DNA of 64,000 bases from Paenirhizobium selenitireducens ATCC BAA-1503 (GTDB lineage Bacteria; Pseudomonadota; Alphaproteobacteria; Rhizobiales; Rhizobiaceae): NCBI RefSeq assembly GCF_000518785.1, contig NZ_JAEG01000001.1, positions 434,001 to 498,000 on the forward strand. Direction: 5' to 3'. Below the pieces are notes generated by a model. The model made no database searches, was not told the DNA's origin, and saw only the letters and a program-made list of their open reading frames with translations. Made by a program: the position numbers and the translations under genes. Each line of letters begins with the position of its first letter. Position 1 is the stretch's first letter. This document shows, piece after piece, positions 1,951-56,913 of the stretch.

Positions 1951-2286
1951 CGTATTTCCTTTACAACAGGTTACACCAGTCTGTTGCCAGACTGGATCAA
2001 GGAAACACGCCCTCCTCTGAACTCCGTTTTGGAAGCTCTGACAGGCCTCTCACATAAAGCGTATGGAAAGTGCCACGGGACATGTCAAAGAAAACACCGG
2101 GCGACAGGCCCGGCGTTGGTGGGGTCATTAGCGGCGGATCACGCGAAAGTCAACGGCTTGCGCTTGAACTAATTGCAGCCGGCTCCATTTCGGAGCGACG
2201 CAGCACCGGGCCCCTCTGACGCGAGTGCCGGATTCCCGTGATGTCGGAGCTGCGATCATCAACCGTTCCGGCAAAGGAAACCCGCA
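1951..2286. other. Intergenic region between rpsD and the TerC-type gene
   Basis: This 336-bp gap separates divergent genes. Minus-strand TTGACA at 2083-2088 with weak -10 candidates around 2059-2065 could be the rpsD promoter. A short GC stem (CCGGGC with GCCCGG, 2097-2113) lies next to it. On the plus side the TerC leader can fold: GCTCC with GGAGC (2182-2196), and CGCAGC (2199-2204) with GCTGCG (2249-2254). I looked for the manganese-sensing yybP-ykoY consensus often found upstream of TerC/Alx genes and did not see it. Confidence 0.4.
1957..1995 (-). promoter_or_regulatory. Structured rpsD leader, possible autoregulatory element
   Basis: On the minus strand a perfect 8-bp stem with a four-base loop (CCAGTCTG, loop GCAA, CAGACTGG; 1976-1995) ends 25 bases before the rpsD ATG. 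Its loop and the adjacent stem bases read CAACAG (1981-1986). These can pair with CTGTTG (1964-1969), which abuts the AAAGGA ribosome-binding site. This gives either a pseudoknot or a switch between two helices. S4 regulating its own mRNA through a pseudoknot is known from enterobacteria; its use here is inference. Confidence 0.4.
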
Positions 2287-34382: not shown

Positions 34383-35009
34383 ATGAAGACTGCGCGCCGT
34401 TTGAGCGTCCTGACAGCCGCTGCGGCACTGCTATTCGGTCTGGGCGACGGAGCCAGCGCCGAGACGATCGTGCGCAAGTCGATCTCCTATTTCCAGATCG
34501 GCGGCACCACGGCCGAGGATCTCGACCGCGAACTGGAGCGTCGGGGACCGGAAACCCGCAGCAGCGGCTCGCGCCATCCGGGCGCCACGCAGATCAAGTT
34601 CGGCGGAGAACTGACCTATGTGCATTCCGCCGGGCAGTGCCGGATCGGCGAAACCAAGGTGACGCTCAACACAAAGATTATCCTGCCCAGCTGGAAGAAC
34701 CGCAAGAAGGCCCATGGCGACCTTGCGCTCATCTGGGACGCCCTGTCGAGCGACATCAAGCGTCACGAGGAACGCCACGCCGAAATCGCCCGGCAGTATG
34801 CGCGGCAGCTGGAAAAGGCATTGAAGAAGCTTCGTCCGCAACGTAACTGCGAGGCCATGCAGGCCAAGGTGGCGGAAGCCACCGACAAGGTCATCTCGGC
34901 CCACGACGCCGCGCAGATGGACTTCGACCGAGTCGAAGCGATCAATTTCGAGAATCGCATGATTCGCATTCTCGAATACCGAGCGAAGCGCAATTCCCCC
35001 AAGAATTGA
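34383..35009 (+). CDS. Exported DUF922 protein with HExxH metalloprotease-like motif
   Basis: The 208-residue product has a signal peptide (end near ASA at residue 26). Its DUF922 domain contains His128-Glu-Glu-Arg-His132, an HExxH motif embedded in SSDIKRHEERHAEIAR, as expected of a zinc-dependent peptidase. The family is annotated as putative secreted Zn-dependent protease, but activity has rarely been shown. The C-terminal quarter is helical and basic. It is divergent from folP, with the two start regions about 100 bp apart. Confidence 0.82.
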   Translation: MKTARRLSVLTAAAALLFGLGDGASAETIVRKSISYFQIGGTTAEDLDRELERRGPETRSSGSRHPGATQIKFGGELTYVHSAGQCRIGETKVTLNTKIILPSWKNRKKAHGDLALIWDALSSDIKRHEERHAEIARQYARQLEKALKKLRPQRNCEAMQAKVAEATDKVISAHDAAQMDFDRVEAINFENRMIRILEYRAKRNSPKN

Positions 35010-35164
35010 GGTGGGCAGGATCGCCAGCCAGACAAAAATGCCACAGGGCTTGCGTGAAACTTGCAAGCGAGCCTGTGAATAACTGGCTATTTCTCGGCGT
35101 GGTACTTGATCATTTCCTGAAATATAAATGTCATCAAGTTCAGTTCATCACGTTTAGACGGTTC

Positions 35165-35275
35165 CCGAGTTCTCCCTGGCGCATCCTGGTGCCACAGGTG
35201 TTCCCTCCCTCGCCTGAATATGGCGATGCGCCCTCCTGCCCCGCTCCTCGCTGACCGAAGAGCGGGGCTTTTTTT
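35165..35275 (+). ncRNA. Candidate small RNA with exposed CCUCC motif
   Basis: A strong terminator lies 230 bp past the nearest upstream plus-strand gene. In front of it are three consecutive stems: GGCGC with GTGCC (35178-35193); a 6-bp stem CAGGTG with CGCCTG (35195-35216) whose ten-base loop is exactly TTCCCTCCCT; and the terminator (35238-35268). A second CCTCC lies unpaired at 35232-35236. Exposed CCUCC anti-ribosome-binding-site loops followed by a strong terminator are the hallmark of alphaproteobacterial trans-acting sRNAs of the suhB/cuckoo and alpha-r14 type. The 5' end is not defined; no convincing -35/-10 pair was found, so the start is approximate. Confidence 0.5.
35238..35275 (+). 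terminator. Strong Rho-independent terminator of the candidate sRNA
   Basis: A perfect 9-bp stem (GCCCCGCTC with GAGCGGGGC) is followed directly by seven T residues on the plus strand. The nearest upstream plus-strand gene ends at 35009. Confidence 0.88.
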
Positions 35276-35282
35276 GGCTTTG

Positions 35283-35603
35283 TCAGCCCTGGCGTTCGGG
35301 AACGCGCACGACGAGGCCGTCAAGCGCCGGCGTGACCTTGATCTGACAGGAAAGTCGGGAATTGGGCTGCACGTCGACGGCGAAGTCGAGCATGTCTTCT
35401 TCCATCGGCGAAGGCGCCCCGACCTTTTCGCTCCAGGCTTCGTCGACATAGACATGACAGGTGGCGCAGGCGCAGGCGCCGCCGCATTCGGCCTCGATGC
35501 CGGGAACGGAATTGCGCACCGCATTCTCCATGACCGTGGATCCTTCGGCCGCAGCGAGTTCAAAGCGCGTGCCGTCGAAAGCGATGATGGTGATTTGTGC
35601 CAT
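35283..35603 (-). CDS. 2Fe-2S ferredoxin, adrenodoxin type
   Basis: This 106-residue electron carrier has the adrenodoxin/FdxB pattern C-x5-C-x2-C with Cys40, Cys46 and Cys49 ([15 protein letters not shown]) and the fourth ligand Cys86 in RLSCQI. Cys44 is an additional cysteine in the loop. The MEEDMLDF segment is typical of the group. In rhizobia such ferredoxins serve P450s or iron-sulfur assembly; no partner gene is adjacent. It is convergent with the candidate sRNA, whose terminator ends eight bases from its stop. Confidence 0.92.
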
Positions 35604-36114: not shown

Positions 36115-36595
36115 GGGACGATTTCCTTCTTATGGGTTTTCTTGGTACCGGCATCCTCGGCGATGCAGCATCCACATCCGGTTAAACCCGCGCCCATCTG
36201 CCGGCAAAACCTTACGATATGGTTAATGACCCCTAAACCGCCGAACCGTATGGTTTTTCACGCGCTAATTTAGTTTAAATGCTGTTAACAATTGCTCCAT
36301 CGCATTAGGAATGCCGCCCCCACTTAATTGTCTCTGCTTTCTGAATGTGTCACTACGGTACGGATGATGTGGGTGAAGGGTGGAAACCTTTGCCCTCAAG
36401 CCGGATGATGATAGGAAACGATCGTCATGCTCTTGATAAGGGGCGGTTCCGGCGGCGTATTCCGATGGAGATTTCATCTGGCGTGGCGGCAGGATGGGGT
36501 CCCCTTGAAAAGTTGTTTTGCCGGGCGCCCCGTCGCGAGCGACCAGGGGTGGCAGGCAGGACAGCTCAATAGGCTTGGTAACGAGGCGTAACCCT
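36115..36595. other. Long intergenic region upstream of the giant polar protein
   Basis: This 481-bp non-coding gap is AT-richer than its surroundings near 36210-36310. It contains a CtrA-type box at 36219-36226, TATGGTTT at 36249-36256 (a partial second copy) and a GTTTAAATGCTGTTAAC segment at about 36273-36289 with two TTAA halves. Downstream, at about 36370-36430, are short imperfect hairpins. No complete gene or confident -35/-10 pair was found. The length suggests a long leader or complex control region. Confidence 0.5.
36219..36226 (-). promoter_or_regulatory. CtrA-type box upstream of the giant polar protein
   Basis: ATGGTTAA is the exact reverse complement of TTAACCAT, the core CtrA motif of Sinorhizobium. 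It lies 370 bp before the polar-protein ATG and 105 bp before the Hpt-like ATG, so either gene could be the target. Confidence 0.4.
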
Positions 36596-39500
36596 ATGGC
36601 GAACAACAAGACGGTCGAGTCGATTGACGACAGCGCGTTCCAGGCGCTGGAAGCGGCTCTGAGGATCGATTTCGACGAACAGGAGACGCCGGCCGCCCGA
36701 GGCAGGCAGGCGTCAGACGCACCGGAGGCCAAAGTGTCCGAGTCCAGCAACCAGCGTCCTGCCGCTCCCAAGAAGTCGACCGAGCGTCGCCCGGCCCGCG
36801 GCGCCGACCTTGCGCCCGAAATGGCCCCAAAGGCGCCCGCCTTCGAACCCGCCAACGACGCATCCCGCCGCAACCCCGCTGCCATCATGAGGACGCTGGA
36901 AGGCGCCTCCATGCCCGGCGCCATGCGCAACGCGACGATCGTCTCGGTGCTGTGGATGCTCGGCGCCATCGGCCTCAGCCAGCTTCTCTACGGCACCGCC
37001 ATATGGCAGGCGCCCACCGTCGCCGACGTCGTGGCCATGCCCGGCGTCGTTGCGATCTTCGTCGGCACGATCATTCCCGTCATGCTGTTCTTCGCTTTCG
37101 CCATCATGATGGCGCGTGCCCATGACCTGCGCAATGCGGCGCGGTCGATGGCAGAAGTCGCGCTGCGCCTTGCCGAACCGGAGACTATCGCCTCCGAACG
37201 CATCATGACGGTCGGCCAGGCCGTGCGTCGCGAAGTCTCGGCGATGAACGAAGGCATCGAGCGCACCATCGCCCGCGCCACCGAGCTCGAAACGCTGGTC
37301 CATTCCGAAGTCACCGCGCTCGAACGCAGCTACAGCGACAATGAGCTTCGCGTCCGCGGCCTCGTCCACGAACTCGGCTCCGAGCGCGACGCGATCGTCA
37401 CTCACGCGGAACGCATTCGCAGTTCCATCGTCGGCGCCCACGACCAGCTGAAGGAAGAACTGTCGCTGGCGACCGAAGAGATCGCGGTCCGCCTCGCCAC
37501 CTCCGGTGAGGCATTCGCGTCGCTGATCGACACTCGCGCCGCGGCCCTGATGGAAAAATCGGACGCCGCCGCAACCTCGATCGGCAGCCTGCTGTCGAGC
37601 AAGACCGAAAACCTCGTCCAGACGCTCAGCGCCTCGGGCATCTCGCTGGCCAGCGAGTTCGACACCCGCCTGCAGCAGCTCACCGGCACCCTGCAGCAGC
37701 GTGGCCGTGAACTGCTCGGCGAATTCGAGACCCGCGCCTCGACCCTCGACGCCAATACCGAAAAGCTCAACGCGGCGCTGAGCGAGCGCGCCCGCCAGCT
37801 CAACGAGACGCTGGCCGAACGCACCCGCGAAATCGCCGACAGCCTGACGAGCGGCGAACAGGGCATCACCAGCTCGCTCGACGAAGTACTGGCAAAACTG
37901 AATGCGACGCTCGACGACAAGGGCGCCGCCTTCCGCCACAGCCTGCAATCGAGCGCCGACGACGCCATCGTCGACCTCGACCTGCGCTCCGGCCTGTTCG
38001 AGGATCGCCTGCAGGCGACCATCGGCCTGGTCAACTCGGCCTTCGACGAGCGCGTCGCTGAATTCGCCAGCGCCTTCGACCAGCGCGCCGGTTCGCTCGA
38101 CAGCAAGCTGATGGAAAGCCTTGCCCGCATCAACGAGACCGTCACCGGCGGTTCCGAGGCGATCGACGGCATCCTCAATTCGAGCATCGAGCGCCTCGGC
38201 TCGACGCTGACCGACCAGTCCTTCGCGCTGGCCACGGCGGTCGGCACGGGCCAGGAACTGATCGACGACGCTCTGTCTACCCGCGCCCAGGAAATCGCCG
38301 ACGCCATGTCCGCCCGCGCCCTTGCGCTGAGCGAGAGCCTGGAGAACGCCCACAAGCGCATCGATGCCGTCATGGAAGAACGCGGTGGAGCACTCTATTC
38401 CGCCCTTTCCGACAACCAGAACCGCTTCGAGGAAACCCTGTCCAGCCGCGCCGAGACCATCGTCAATGCGCTGGCGGGCAACCAGGATCGCTTCGCCGAG
38501 ACCCTCGACAGCAAGGCCCGCGAGATCGCCGATACGCTGGCCAGCGGCCAGCAACGCCTCGACCAGACGCTGGAAGGCCGTGCATCGACCCTGATCGAAG
38601 CCGTGTCCGGAACCGAGAGCCGCCTCGCCGAGGCACTCGACCGCCGCACCGCGACGATCATCGAAACCGTGGCTGACGCCGACCAGCGCCTCGAAGCCGC
38701 CTTCGCCGACAAGGCCGAAGCGATCCGCAGCGCCTACAGCGAAAACCAGGACCGCCTCGACCTGTCGCTGGCCGGTCATGCCGCCTACCTCGCCTCCACG
38801 CTGGAGCAGGCCGGCGAGCAGCTCGAAAAGTCGCTTGGCGAGGGCACCAGCCGGATCGGCGAAACCATGGCGTCCGGCCTTTCCGGCATTGGCGACACGA
38901 TGGCTTCGGGTCTTGCCGGCATCGACGGCAAGCTCTCCGATACCCATGAACGCATCCGCGCAACGCTGGAAGAACGCGGCAATGCGATCGACCTGACGCT
39001 GCGCTCGGCCCAGGAGCAGCTGGACGGCACTCTCGCCGAACAGGGTGCCGCGATCGGCGCTTCGATCGCCGCTTCCACCGGCATGCTGGAAATGACGCTG
39101 GAGGAGCGCGAGGAAGCGCTGCGCCGCGCCATCGACGAAAGCGGCAAGGCGCTCGACGAACGCCTGCGCGGCACGGCCGGTGCGCTGACCAGCCAGATCG
39201 GCGAAGCCGCCAGCGAAATCACCCGTACGGCGCAGGATTTTTCGGGTCGCATCGAACAGTCGGTCGGCGGCATGGCGAACCGTATCGACGATACCAGCAC
39301 CCGCATCGAGGTCAGCCTCGAAACCCTCGAGGAGCGGATCAAGAACGGCCTTGACGGTGTCGATACGCGCATCGGCGATGCCGGTGAGAAATTCGCCGGC
39401 CGCCTGACCGAGAAGGTCTCCGATCTCGAGCGGGTCGGAAGCGATGCCGTGGAGCGCGTCTCGCGCGTGCTCGATGACGGCGCAACCAAGGTTGCCGAGA

Positions 39501-42055
39501 CCTTCGACAGCCGCACCGCCCAGATCGACGAACGCCTGTCGACCATGGACCGCGCCCTCAATATCGGCCTCGACAACGTCAACCGCACGATCGAGGGCAA
39601 GGCCGCCGGCCTCGCCGCCGCGTTGCGTGGCGCCGTTGCCGATGCCGCCCGCGACCTCGACGGCGAAGCCCAGCGCTCCGTCGAACTGCTCAACCAGACG
39701 GGCGCCCAGTTTGCCGAGCGGATCGGCGAACGCAGCGCCGAACTCAGCCGCACGGTCGAGGAGAAGTCCGAAGACCTCGCCAACCGCATTTCCGAAACGC
39801 AGACCCGCCTTGCCGGCCAGGCAGCGGCCGTGGCCCAGACCTTCGCCGAAGCCGGCGACGTCATCGCCAACAAGGTGGCGGAAGCGGAAGCCCTCGTCGG
39901 CAGCCAGATCTCGGCGCTGTCGGGTACACTCTCGGATGCCGGCTCGGCACTCGAGGCCCGGGCAACCGCGATCCGAGAGCAGCTTTCCGGCAATACCGCA
40001 GAAATCACCTCGACCATGGATGCCGTCGAAAAGGCGCTCGAAGCGCGCGGCAACACCATTCGCACGGTGCTCGACGAGCGAACCCGCGAACTCAACTCGA
40101 TGCTCGCATCCCGCTCGGCCGAACTGTCGCGCCTAATCGACGAGAAGGCGGCCCCGCTGGTCGCCGACTATGCCGAGACCGGCCGCACGGCCGCGGAGCG
40201 GATCGCCGAGGCAGCGGCACTGAGCACCGAACGCCTGCGTGCCGAGAACAATGCGATCGTCGATGCGATCGGCTACCGGGCCGACAAGGCGGCCGAGACC
40301 ATCAATGCGGCCGAGACGAGCCTGACGCAAAGCGCCGGACGCCTGATCGATCGCCTGAGCGAAAGCAATTCGGGCCTCGCCAACATGATCGAGCAGGTGG
40401 CCGCCAATATCGTGGCTGCCGATGGCCAGCTTGGCCAGACGACCGAGCGCTTCGCCGCAACCACGTCCAAGGCCGCCGACCTGCTGCAGACCTCCGGTCG
40501 CCTGCTCGATGGCAAGCTCGAGCGGCTGGCCGCCGTCTCCGGCGAGACCCTGTCGCAGGTCACCTCGATCGTCGGCCGCTTCGGCGATCACTCGAAGGTC
40601 CTGAGCCAGGCCTCCGACCTTCTTTCCGCCGCCCAGTCGAACCTTGTCGGCACCCTCGAGGAACGCCAGCAGGCGCTCCGCGATCTCGCCGTCGGCCTCG
40701 TCAAGCGCTCGGAAGAGATCGAGACGACGATGCAGAACCTCGGCAACATGGTCGACAGCGCATTCGAGCGCGCCGAACAGCGGTCGGGGCAGGTCGCAGG
40801 CAACCTGCGCCAGAGCATCCAGACCTCCTTTGCCGACATCGGCAAGATCCTGTCCGAGACGGAAAAGCAGGCGCTCTCCACCGCCGGCAACATGCGCGGT
40901 GCGCTGATGTCGGCTGGCGAAGACGCCAACCGCGCCATCGAGAAGACCCTGTCGGAAGCCGAGAAGCGTTCGGGCGACCTCGCCGACCGTCTGCGCGGCG
41001 GGCTCACCGCATCGCTATCGGACGTCGACAAGCTGCTCGGCGAAGCCGGGCGCAAGTCCGACGGTGCCGCCAACCATCTGCGCGAAGCCATGCGCCAGGC
41101 GGTCGAGGAAGCGGTCACCCGCTTTGCAGGCGCGACCGACGAGATCCGCCGCTCGGCCCAGGACATCCGCAAGGAACTGGACATGACCCGCAGCGAGCTG
41201 AAGCGTGGGGCGTTCGACCTGCCGGAAGAGGCCAAGGAAAGCGCTGCCGCCATGCGCCGTGCCGTGTCCGAGCAGATCAAGGCGCTGCAGGACATCTCGC
41301 AGCTCGTCGGCCGTTCGACCCAGGTCCTGGAAATCTCCGAGCCTGTCGCCCGCAAGCTGGCCGAAGCAAAGCCCGTCGAGGCACCGAGAAGGCCCCCTGC
41401 GCCCGCTCCGGCTCCCGTCGTCGCCCAGCAGCCTGCGCCGGCACCTGTCGTGGCCCCCGCTCCAGTACCGGCACCGGCACCGGCCCGCGCGATGGAGCCG
41501 CTTGGCCTGCGCGGCAGCATCAATCCATCGACCGCCCCTGCTCCCTCTGCAGGCGGCGTATCCGGCGGATGGATCAGCGACCTGCTGCGCGGCGCCTCGC
41601 GCGACGAGCATGAGGAAGCGGTCGCGGCACCCGCTCCGCGCGCGCCCGCACCCCGTCCGGCCGCCGAGGCCCCGGCCGCACCGCGCCAGGCCGACACCCG
41701 CAATCCGCGCCACATGGTGGAATCGCTGAACTCGCTGTCGGTGGACATCGCCCGCGCCATCGACCACGACGCATCGGTCGATCTGTGGCGCCGCTACCAG
41801 CGTGGCGAGCGCGACGTCTTCACCCGCCGGCTCTATACGCTGAAGGGCCAGCAGACCTTCGACGAGATCAAGCGCAAGTATGACCGCGAACCGGAGTTCC
41901 GCGTCGCCGTCGACCGCTACATCGCCGACTTCGAAAAGCTGCTCGGCGACGTCGCCCGCACCGACCGCGACAAGACCGTCACCCAGTCCTACCTGACCTC
42001 CGATACCGGCAAGGTCTACACCATGCTGGCCCATGCCGCAGGTCGGTTCAGCTGA
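36596..42055 (+). CDS. Giant coiled-coil membrane protein, growth-pole-ring (GPR/TipN-like) type
   Basis: The 1819-residue protein has an acidic, probably disordered N-terminus (1-110) and two membrane helices (about 113-133 and 151-173). About 1400 residues of almost uninterrupted helix follow, with degenerate repeats of the form LxxRxxxIxxxL plus the doublet TMASGLSGIGDTMASGLAG near residue 760. This region resembles apolipoprotein-type amphipathic repeats. A Pro/Ala-rich linker (about 1598-1645) and a globular C-terminus of about 130 residues (from NPRHMVESLNSL) end it. This layout matches the growth pole ring protein of Agrobacterium, which organises polar growth and relates to Caulobacter TipN. 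The ATG at 36596 has GAGG nine bases upstream; the longer frame lacks one. Confidence 0.85.
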   Translation: MANNKTVESIDDSAFQALEAALRIDFDEQETPAARGRQASDAPEAKVSESSNQRPAAPKKSTERRPARGADLAPEMAPKAPAFEPANDASRRNPAAIMRTLEGASMPGAMRNATIVSVLWMLGAIGLSQLLYGTAIWQAPTVADVVAMPGVVAIFVGTIIPVMLFFAFAIMMARAHDLRNAARSMAEVALRLAEPETIASERIMTVGQAVRREVSAMNEGIERTIARATELETLVHSEVTALERSYSDNELRVRGLVHELGSERDAIVTHAERIRSSIVGAHDQLKEELSLATEEIAVRLATSGEAFASLIDTRAAALMEKSDAAATSIGSLLSSKTENLVQTLSASGISLASEFDTRLQQLTGTLQQRGRELLGEFETRASTLDANTEKLNAALSERARQLNETLAERTREIADSLTSGEQGITSSLDEVLAKLNATLDDKGAAFRHSLQSSADDAIVDLDLRSGLFEDRLQATIGLVNSAFDERVAEFASAFDQRAGSLDSKLMESLARINETVTGGSEAIDGILNSSIERLGSTLTDQSFALATAVGTGQELIDDALSTRAQEIADAMSARALALSESLENAHKRIDAVMEERGGALYSALSDNQNRFEETLSSRAETIVNALAGNQDRFAETLDSKAREIADTLASGQQRLDQTLEGRASTLIEAVSGTESRLAEALDRRTATIIETVADADQRLEAAFADKAEAIRSAYSENQDRLDLSLAGHAAYLASTLEQAGEQLEKSLGEGTSRIGETMASGLSGIGDTMASGLAGIDGKLSDTHERIRATLEERGNAIDLTLRSAQEQLDGTLAEQGAAIGASIAASTGMLEMTLEEREEALRRAIDESGKALDERLRGTAGALTSQIGEAASEITRTAQDFSGRIEQSVGGMANRIDDTSTRIEVSLETLEERIKNGLDGVDTRIGDAGEKFAGRLTEKVSDLERVGSDAVERVSRVLDDGATKVAETFDSRTAQIDERLSTMDRALNIGLDNVNRTIEGKAAGLAAALRGAVADAARDLDGEAQRSVELLNQTGAQFAERIGERSAELSRTVEEKSEDLANRISETQTRLAGQAAAVAQTFAEAGDVIANKVAEAEALVGSQISALSGTLSDAGSALEARATAIREQLSGNTAEITSTMDAVEKALEARGNTIRTVLDERTRELNSMLASRSAELSRLIDEKAAPLVADYAETGRTAAERIAEAAALSTERLRAENNAIVDAIGYRADKAAETINAAETSLTQSAGRLIDRLSESNSGLANMIEQVAANIVAADGQLGQTTERFAATTSKAADLLQTSGRLLDGKLERLAAVSGETLSQVTSIVGRFGDHSKVLSQASDLLSAAQSNLVGTLEERQQALRDLAVGLVKRSEEIETTMQNLGNMVDSAFERAEQRSGQVAGNLRQSIQTSFADIGKILSETEKQALSTAGNMRGALMSAGEDANRAIEKTLSEAEKRSGDLADRLRGGLTASLSDVDKLLGEAGRKSDGAANHLREAMRQAVEEAVTRFAGATDEIRRSAQDIRKELDMTRSELKRGAFDLPEEAKESAAAMRRAVSEQIKALQDISQLVGRSTQVLEISEPVARKLAEAKPVEAPRRPPAPAPAPVVAQQPAPAPVVAPAPVPAPAPARAMEPLGLRGSINPSTAPAPSAGGVSGGWISDLLRGASRDEHEEAVAAPAPRAPAPRPAAEAPAAPRQADTRNPRHMVESLNSLSVDIARAIDHDASVDLWRRYQRGERDVFTRRLYTLKGQQTFDEIKRKYDREPEFRVAVDRYIADFEKLLGDVARTDRDKTVTQSYLTSDTGKVYTMLAHAAGRFS

Positions 42056-55915: not shown

Positions 55916-56858
<943 letters not shown>

Positions 56859-56913
56859 GGAAGAATGTCTACAGCATCATGGCCCGAAGGCAAGACGGCT
56901 TGCCCGTGTCTGC

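Follow-up and report, generated by a model that had tools for sequence, protein, structure and literature searches.

A member of the small RNA family Atu_C7 with a conserved upstream block lies between DUF922 and ferredoxin genes in Paenirhizobium selenitireducens

Results

A structured small RNA locus between the DUF922 and ferredoxin genes

We analyzed a 64,000-nucleotide stretch of the Paenirhizobium selenitireducens ATCC BAA-1503 genome (the window, to which all coordinates refer). Between a DUF922 gene and a convergent 2Fe-2S ferredoxin gene lies a small RNA (sRNA) gene whose predicted features are listed in Table 1. An earlier reading of the letters (the sequence-only reading) had proposed at this position a trans-acting sRNA with a CCUCC loop, and much of its description of the locus held. 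DUF922 ends 228 bases before the terminator stem, in agreement with the roughly 230 bp that had been described as free of plus-strand genes. The terminator is formed by a perfect 9-bp stem (GCCCCGCTC, 35238-35246, and GAGCGGGGC, 35260-35268) and seven T residues (35269-35275), and the hairpin before it has 6 bp, including one G-U, and a ten-base loop, both as had been stated. Terminator-like sites are common here (5 in 3.5 kb versus 3.4 in shuffles). A second CCTCC (35232-35236), described as unpaired, was so for four of its bases in the minimum-energy fold, its first C closing the outer stem; by eye on the alignments, relatives do not keep this motif, nor do they keep CTTGAT/ATCAAG (35105-35138), noted earlier as an imperfect repeat, as a repeat.

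Two elements are additions to that description, namely the outer stem, which is a perfect 8 bp with both-side changes in 4 of 8 pairs, and the upstream UUCUCCC. The fold had a free energy of -53.2 kcal/mol against a shuffle mean of -41.2 (z -3.25), and none of 200 shuffles was as stable.

Table 1. Features of the sRNA locus and its flanking genes.
Feature	Position	Strand	Basis
DUF922 gene, upstream neighbor of the sRNA	34383-35009	+	Pfam PF06037, E 6.3e-43
Conserved dyad AATAACTGGCTATT (family consensus AATNACCGGTNATT), candidate activator site	35078-35091	+	Upstream-region comparison
Atu_C7 sRNA gene	35118-35275	+	cmscan RF02501, E 2e-12; predicted start ~35135, end 35275, ~140 nt
Predicted -10 element TATAAA	35123-35128	+	TA at fixed 31 nt past dyad
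Conserved single-stranded UUCUCCC	35170-35176	+	Unpaired in fold; 91% mean column identity, 35 rows
Outer stem, 5' arm GGCGCATC	35178-35185	+	Fold; 98.2% of cells paired
Middle stem, 5' arm GCCA, paired to TGGC 35221-35224	35191-35194	+	Minimum-energy fold
Loop hairpin, 5' arm CAGGTG	35195-35200	+	Minimum-energy fold, covariation
Exposed loop TTCCCTCCCT, presumed pairing seed	35201-35210	+	CCTCCC in 37/37 unselected relatives read
Loop hairpin, 3' arm CGCCTG	35211-35216	+	Minimum-energy fold, covariation
Outer stem, 3' arm GATGCGCC	35225-35232	+	Fold, covariation
Intrinsic terminator, 9-bp stem and seven T	35238-35275	+	Sequence, fold; helix 95.9% paired in 35 rows
2Fe-2S ferredoxin gene, convergent neighbor of the sRNA	35283-35603	-	Pfam Fer2, E 1.4e-11

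The sRNA belongs to the Atu_C7 family

The sRNA is a known Rhizobiaceae RNA, Atu_C7, and not suhB or ar14. The discovery of C7 is credited in PMC4201532 to Wilms 2012. The Rfam model Atu_C7 (RF02501) covered 35118-35273 with 65.4 bits against a cut-off of 45, over model positions 1-157 of 157, and this was its sole match genome-wide at E up to 0.001. According to the available part of PMC4201532, C7 of Agrobacterium C58 lies between atu1350 and atu1351, is detected on Northern blots and is termed a trans-encoded sRNA; it was enriched 20-fold with Hfq in minimal medium, and its level in this medium was down in the hfq mutant.

The sequence-only reading had placed the RNA with the suhB/cuckoo and ar14 sRNAs, and a covariance search with these models did not bear this out. 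In an Rfam search of 601 bases, suhB (RF00519) scored 15.3 bits here (cut-off 41), and neither ar14 (RF02344) nor ar15/AbcR (RF02345) was matched at E up to 10. Genes of these families sit elsewhere in the P. selenitireducens genome: the suhB model exceeds its cut-off three times, two of these matches overlapping the two ar15 genes, and ar14 is present in three copies of 105-112 bits. The definition of ar14 given in the available part of PMC10746234 requires three hairpins each with CCUCCUCCC, whereas here there is one such hairpin, with CCUCCC. A CCUCC-loop sRNA had thus been rightly sensed and assigned to the wrong relatives; such a loop by itself does not name a family, because several unrelated RNAs in one genome carry one. 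RF02501, covariation, loop conservation and the Northern blot and Hfq results for Agrobacterium C7 all support the reading of the DUF922/ferredoxin gap as the site of a trans-type sRNA whose CCUCC loop is exposed. As a comparison of working mode, moreover, the suhB/ar14 type is reasonable, and Atu_C7 probably shares the mode of action of the CCUCC-loop RNAs while being no member of those families.

Further names were considered for this RNA. Burkholderia anti-hemB was listed at E 0.0016 in the 601-base search with half its cut-off, which we took as a match to loop and terminator. Identity with PmaR was rejected, as PmaR is the former C10. SmelC151 as the Sinorhizobium meliloti name of C7 was unsupported, the available part of its description giving 74 nt and fragmented synteny.

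Structure, loop and gene order are conserved among relatives

Relatives were collected by a ferredoxin search, from which the best 80 named loci were taken. CCTCCC occurred within 330 nt of the ferredoxin stop in 40 of them, and these loci with the window (41), minus six near-identical rows, made an alignment of 35 rows. In this alignment 96.4% of cells were paired and both-side changes were seen in 14 of 25 pairs (pair-change counts being inflated by kinship of the rows), values that 0 of 500 shuffles reached; pairing fell to 35-55% when partners were slid by 1-3 columns. Since all rows had been selected for CCTCCC near the ferredoxin stop, this alignment cannot show loop conservation.

Covariance models gave matches that had not been picked for the loop. 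RF02501 exceeded its cut-off in 20 of 20 loci of one batch and 9 of 20 of a second (40 of the best 80 scanned), and in the sampled genomes of the order it matched 10 of 397, nine of them over cut-off. A model built from 34 ferredoxin-neighbor loci and the window (R1) matched 45 of the best 80 loci at E below 1e-6. This added five Hoeflea loci (L038, L054, L064, L070 and L089) with a C7-like RNA that lies some 1.1 kb away from ferredoxin and keeps the CCTCCC loop within stems of other sequence; four of the five were scanned with RF02501, and none of the four reached its cut-off. At E up to 0.001, R1 further matched 54 of 199 sampled family genomes, 42 with at least 43 bits. In the class sample it matched 15 of 289, and all except P. 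selenitireducens itself (14 of 288) scored 25-37 bits, with E down to 2e-7. We take these class-level matches as terminator matches, because all nine that were read were without CCTCCC and shared mainly the terminator. The order, family and class searches used stricter filters, by which weak matches are lost.

Among matches not picked for the loop, CCTCCC was found in the loop of all 37 that were read, although the models that retrieved them (RF02501 or R1) themselves contain it. The 37 comprise eight of the nine RF02501 matches in other genomes, 24 new loci among the best 30 R1 family matches and the five Hoeflea loci; 24 weaker R1 family matches were left out, and some of the 37 are possibly the same species as named loci. 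The ninth RF02501 match, L010, a 27-bit match beyond the family, was missed by R1 and has no CCTCCC. Loop conservation among relatives had been set beforehand as a check on the sequence-only reading, and it was borne out by these matches. The upstream TTCTCC was present in 33 of the 37; in one or more of these it sits at another place in the core.

The order DUF922 - sRNA - ferredoxin is likewise common to relatives. Of 78 loci, 76 had DUF922 ahead of the sRNA on its own strand and 75 had the ferredoxin gene, 45 of which had been retrieved via ferredoxin itself; in the 32 loci retrieved by other routes, DUF922 was found in 32 and ferredoxin in 29. The computed distance from the DUF922 stop to the sRNA core ranged from 14 to 689 nt, a few values possibly being off where the script met another stop.

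A conserved promoter-like block precedes the sRNA

A consensus scan found no sigma-70-like promoter; the sequence-only reading, too, had found no promoter with confidence. Comparison of upstream regions revealed the dyad of Table 1, whose consensus was present within two mismatches in 33 of 78 regions (0.85 expected from base shuffles); it was picked after the sequences had been read and related rows were counted many times, and because the dyad was first spotted by eye this count describes rather than tests it. A longer form, GAATRACYGGYNATTTCT, occurred once in the P. selenitireducens genome at up to two mismatches (reversed control, twice). The fixed spacing between dyad and TA is a stronger point. 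With dyads of up to four mismatches, TA lay exactly 31 nt past the dyad in 48 of 65 rows, or 31 of 47 once rows with similar blocks were removed; spacing 33 gave 26 rows (14), largely the second TA of TATA, spacing 18 gave 18 (5), and the other spacings tested at most 5. The position of TATAAA points to a start near 35135, and no -35 box was seen upstream of this predicted -10. Several genera have the block roughly 200 nt before the core, which suggests a longer leader there. The predicted promoter block, that is, the dyad, the exact 31-nt spacing and the TATA-like -10, is a new addition to C7.

VtlR/LsrB was considered as the activator and set aside, as the boxes GCAT-N3-TG-N3-T and TGCA-N6-GCAT in the available part of the published descriptions are unlike the dyad when compared by eye. 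Two minor repeats were also seen. An imperfect tandem repeat, TCATCAAGTTCAG / TCATCACGTTTAG (35131-35157), sits at the predicted sRNA 5' end, and an imperfect gapped inverted repeat, CACAGGGCTTGC ... GCAAGCGAGCCTGTG (35042-35077, by eye), lies between DUF922 and the dyad; in relatives, CTTGC words recur in the region matching the latter.

Candidate targets of the loop

For an RNA bound by Hfq, a CCUCCC loop held out in this way points to pairing with ribosome-binding sites. The P. selenitireducens genome contains 15 sites of the form GAGGGAGG-N2-12-ATG against 1 for the reversed pattern, an excess that many Shine-Dalgarno-like octamers may show, and 8 of the 15 begin a frame under 160 aa. Likely genes preceded by such a site include one for an ABC solute-binding protein, which matches Pfam SBP_bac_1 and exceeded the cut-off of no NCBIfam model (its best matches there were of the sugar type). 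Others are cydB, the gene of a TRAP binding protein whose start may sit further in than its complementary site suggests, an ABC permease gene (Pfam BPD_transp_2) and that of the protocatechuate dioxygenase beta subunit.

At E up to 1e-100, 30 of 61 genomes had an orthologue of the solute-binding protein. Using start codons picked by script, we found the leader GTGAGGGAGG, with 10-bp loop complementarity, in 10 of 12 C7 genomes (at least 43 bits), in 0 of 4 genomes with weak matches and in 0 of 14 without C7; the extended site was missing from two divergent C7 genomes. The mean duplex energies of the site with the window's loop were -21.5, -13.6 and -14.5 kcal/mol in these three groups, respectively. 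These comparisons suggest the binding protein, with its site GUGAGGGAGG, as a candidate C7 target. The evidence is suggestive only, because the C7 genomes are one part of the family, so that the contrast follows phylogeny, because other CCUCC-loop RNAs bind the site almost as well (ar14 windows up to -21.3 versus -23.2 for C7), and because genomes with C7 show no clear overall excess of complementary start sites. Per 5 Mb, GYGAGGGAGG before ATG was counted 3.45 times in the 42 genomes with C7, 2.62 times in the 12 with weak matches and 3.0 times in the 145 lacking C7; the reversed controls gave 0.33, 0.28 and 0.58. Rates so similar with and without C7 give no clear C7 signal. GUGAG could also be retained because it forms a small hairpin with CUCA or serves other sRNAs. 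In P. selenitireducens (C1:163762-163780; L140, L160) the solute-binding-protein leader carries an AACGTT-type palindromic stretch together with the GTGAGGGAGG ribosome site common to C7 genomes.

Discussion

We consider it likely, with a probability of roughly 0.8, that the region is an Atu_C7 gene with its own promoter, which yields an RNA of about 140 nt ending at 35275 whose loop, aided by Hfq, represses several mRNAs. Family, structure and the conservation of both loop and promoter block were observed here, whereas a transcript and its association with Hfq are published for Agrobacterium C7 (available part of PMC4201532). The predicted promoter has a TATA-like -10 but no recognizable -35 box; perhaps switched on by a putative factor that binds the dyad, it would start transcription near 35135, and transcription would end at the terminator. 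The stacked stems would then present the loop UUCCCUCCCU, which, aided by Hfq, would pair with purine-rich ribosome-binding sites and repress translation of several mRNAs, one candidate being that of the ABC-transporter solute-binding protein. A more specific version is a tentative possibility: a dedicated Rhizobiaceae switch, in which a putative activator at approximately AATNACCGGTNATTTCTAGCGATAGC (a consensus put together by eye) would turn on C7 from its promoter without -35, and C7 would shut off the binding protein through a site that co-evolved with the loop.

The region could instead be the DUF922 3' untranslated region, whether a terminator alone or an sRNA cut from the mRNA; a 3' end of the DUF922 transcript was also raised in the sequence-only reading. 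The nearly constant position of DUF922 upstream on the same strand fits this explanation, as does the failure to find a consensus sigma-70 promoter. Yet relatives keep a dyad and a -10, a set distance apart, in the stretch from DUF922 to the core, the gap from the DUF922 stop to the core is variable, and C7 was described in Agrobacterium as trans-encoded and seen on Northern blots; the promoter-like block in between makes a DUF922 transcript end the less likely reading, and we regard it as unlikely.

Membership in the suhB/MmgR or ar14 (cuckoo) type would explain a CCUCC loop of the same kind, and suhB is at least listed in the search; with a score so far under its cut-off, ar14 unmatched, one hairpin with exposed CCUCCC in place of three, and genes of suhB, ar14 and ar15 type elsewhere in the genome, it is hardly credible. 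A third explanation concerns the function of C7 and not its identity: it could be mainly a sponge for Hfq or another protein, its loop binding protein and not ribosome-binding sites. Strong Hfq enrichment in Agrobacterium is in line with such a role, as is the observation that complementary start sites are not clearly enriched where C7 is present. Against it, the C-rich loop of Agrobacterium PmaR acts on targets, with four bases essential (available part of PMC6234868), and the constancy of the loop letters while the stems vary is compatible with sponge and target pairing alike. We consider a mainly sponge-like function very unlikely.

The RNA resembles Agrobacterium Atu_C7 in sequence and structure across the whole model, in its terminator and in its intergenic position, but the first ~45 nt are only weakly similar in the RF02501 alignment, and the promoter block and Hoeflea copies are not mentioned in the available part of the published C7 text. 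Like ar14/NfeR1, C7 has an exposed anti-Shine-Dalgarno loop with predicted ribosome-binding-site pairing, and transporter mRNAs are among the likely targets of both. The available part of PMC10746234 reports that NfeR1 represses through pairing at the start region and describes it as Hfq-independent, in contrast to the Hfq-enriched Agrobacterium C7. The suhB copy of P. selenitireducens also has a UUUCCUCCCU stretch and terminator, and its ar15 copies also have a CCUCCC loop; AbcR RNAs inhibit ABC-transporter mRNAs (available part of PMC8844928). The accessible C-rich loop is shared with PmaR, in which it is needed for target regulation, and PmaR acts on its targets both up and down (available part of PMC6234868).

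Many genera of Rhizobiaceae have C7, and in Agrobacterium it is bound by Hfq. No paper on C7 targets or regulator was among the matches listed in the literature searched, which covered few subscription papers. The promoter block kept by relatives and the binding protein as a candidate target make the questions of its regulator and targets directly testable in laboratory strains.

Elsewhere in the window, the Rfam search identified a cobalamin riboswitch (56664-56872, minus strand, 107.9 bits) and a terC RNA element (2198-2256, plus strand, 52.7 bits). A very long plus-strand open reading frame (36518-42055; 1845 aa from TTG) shows repeated coiled-coil-like segments by eye.
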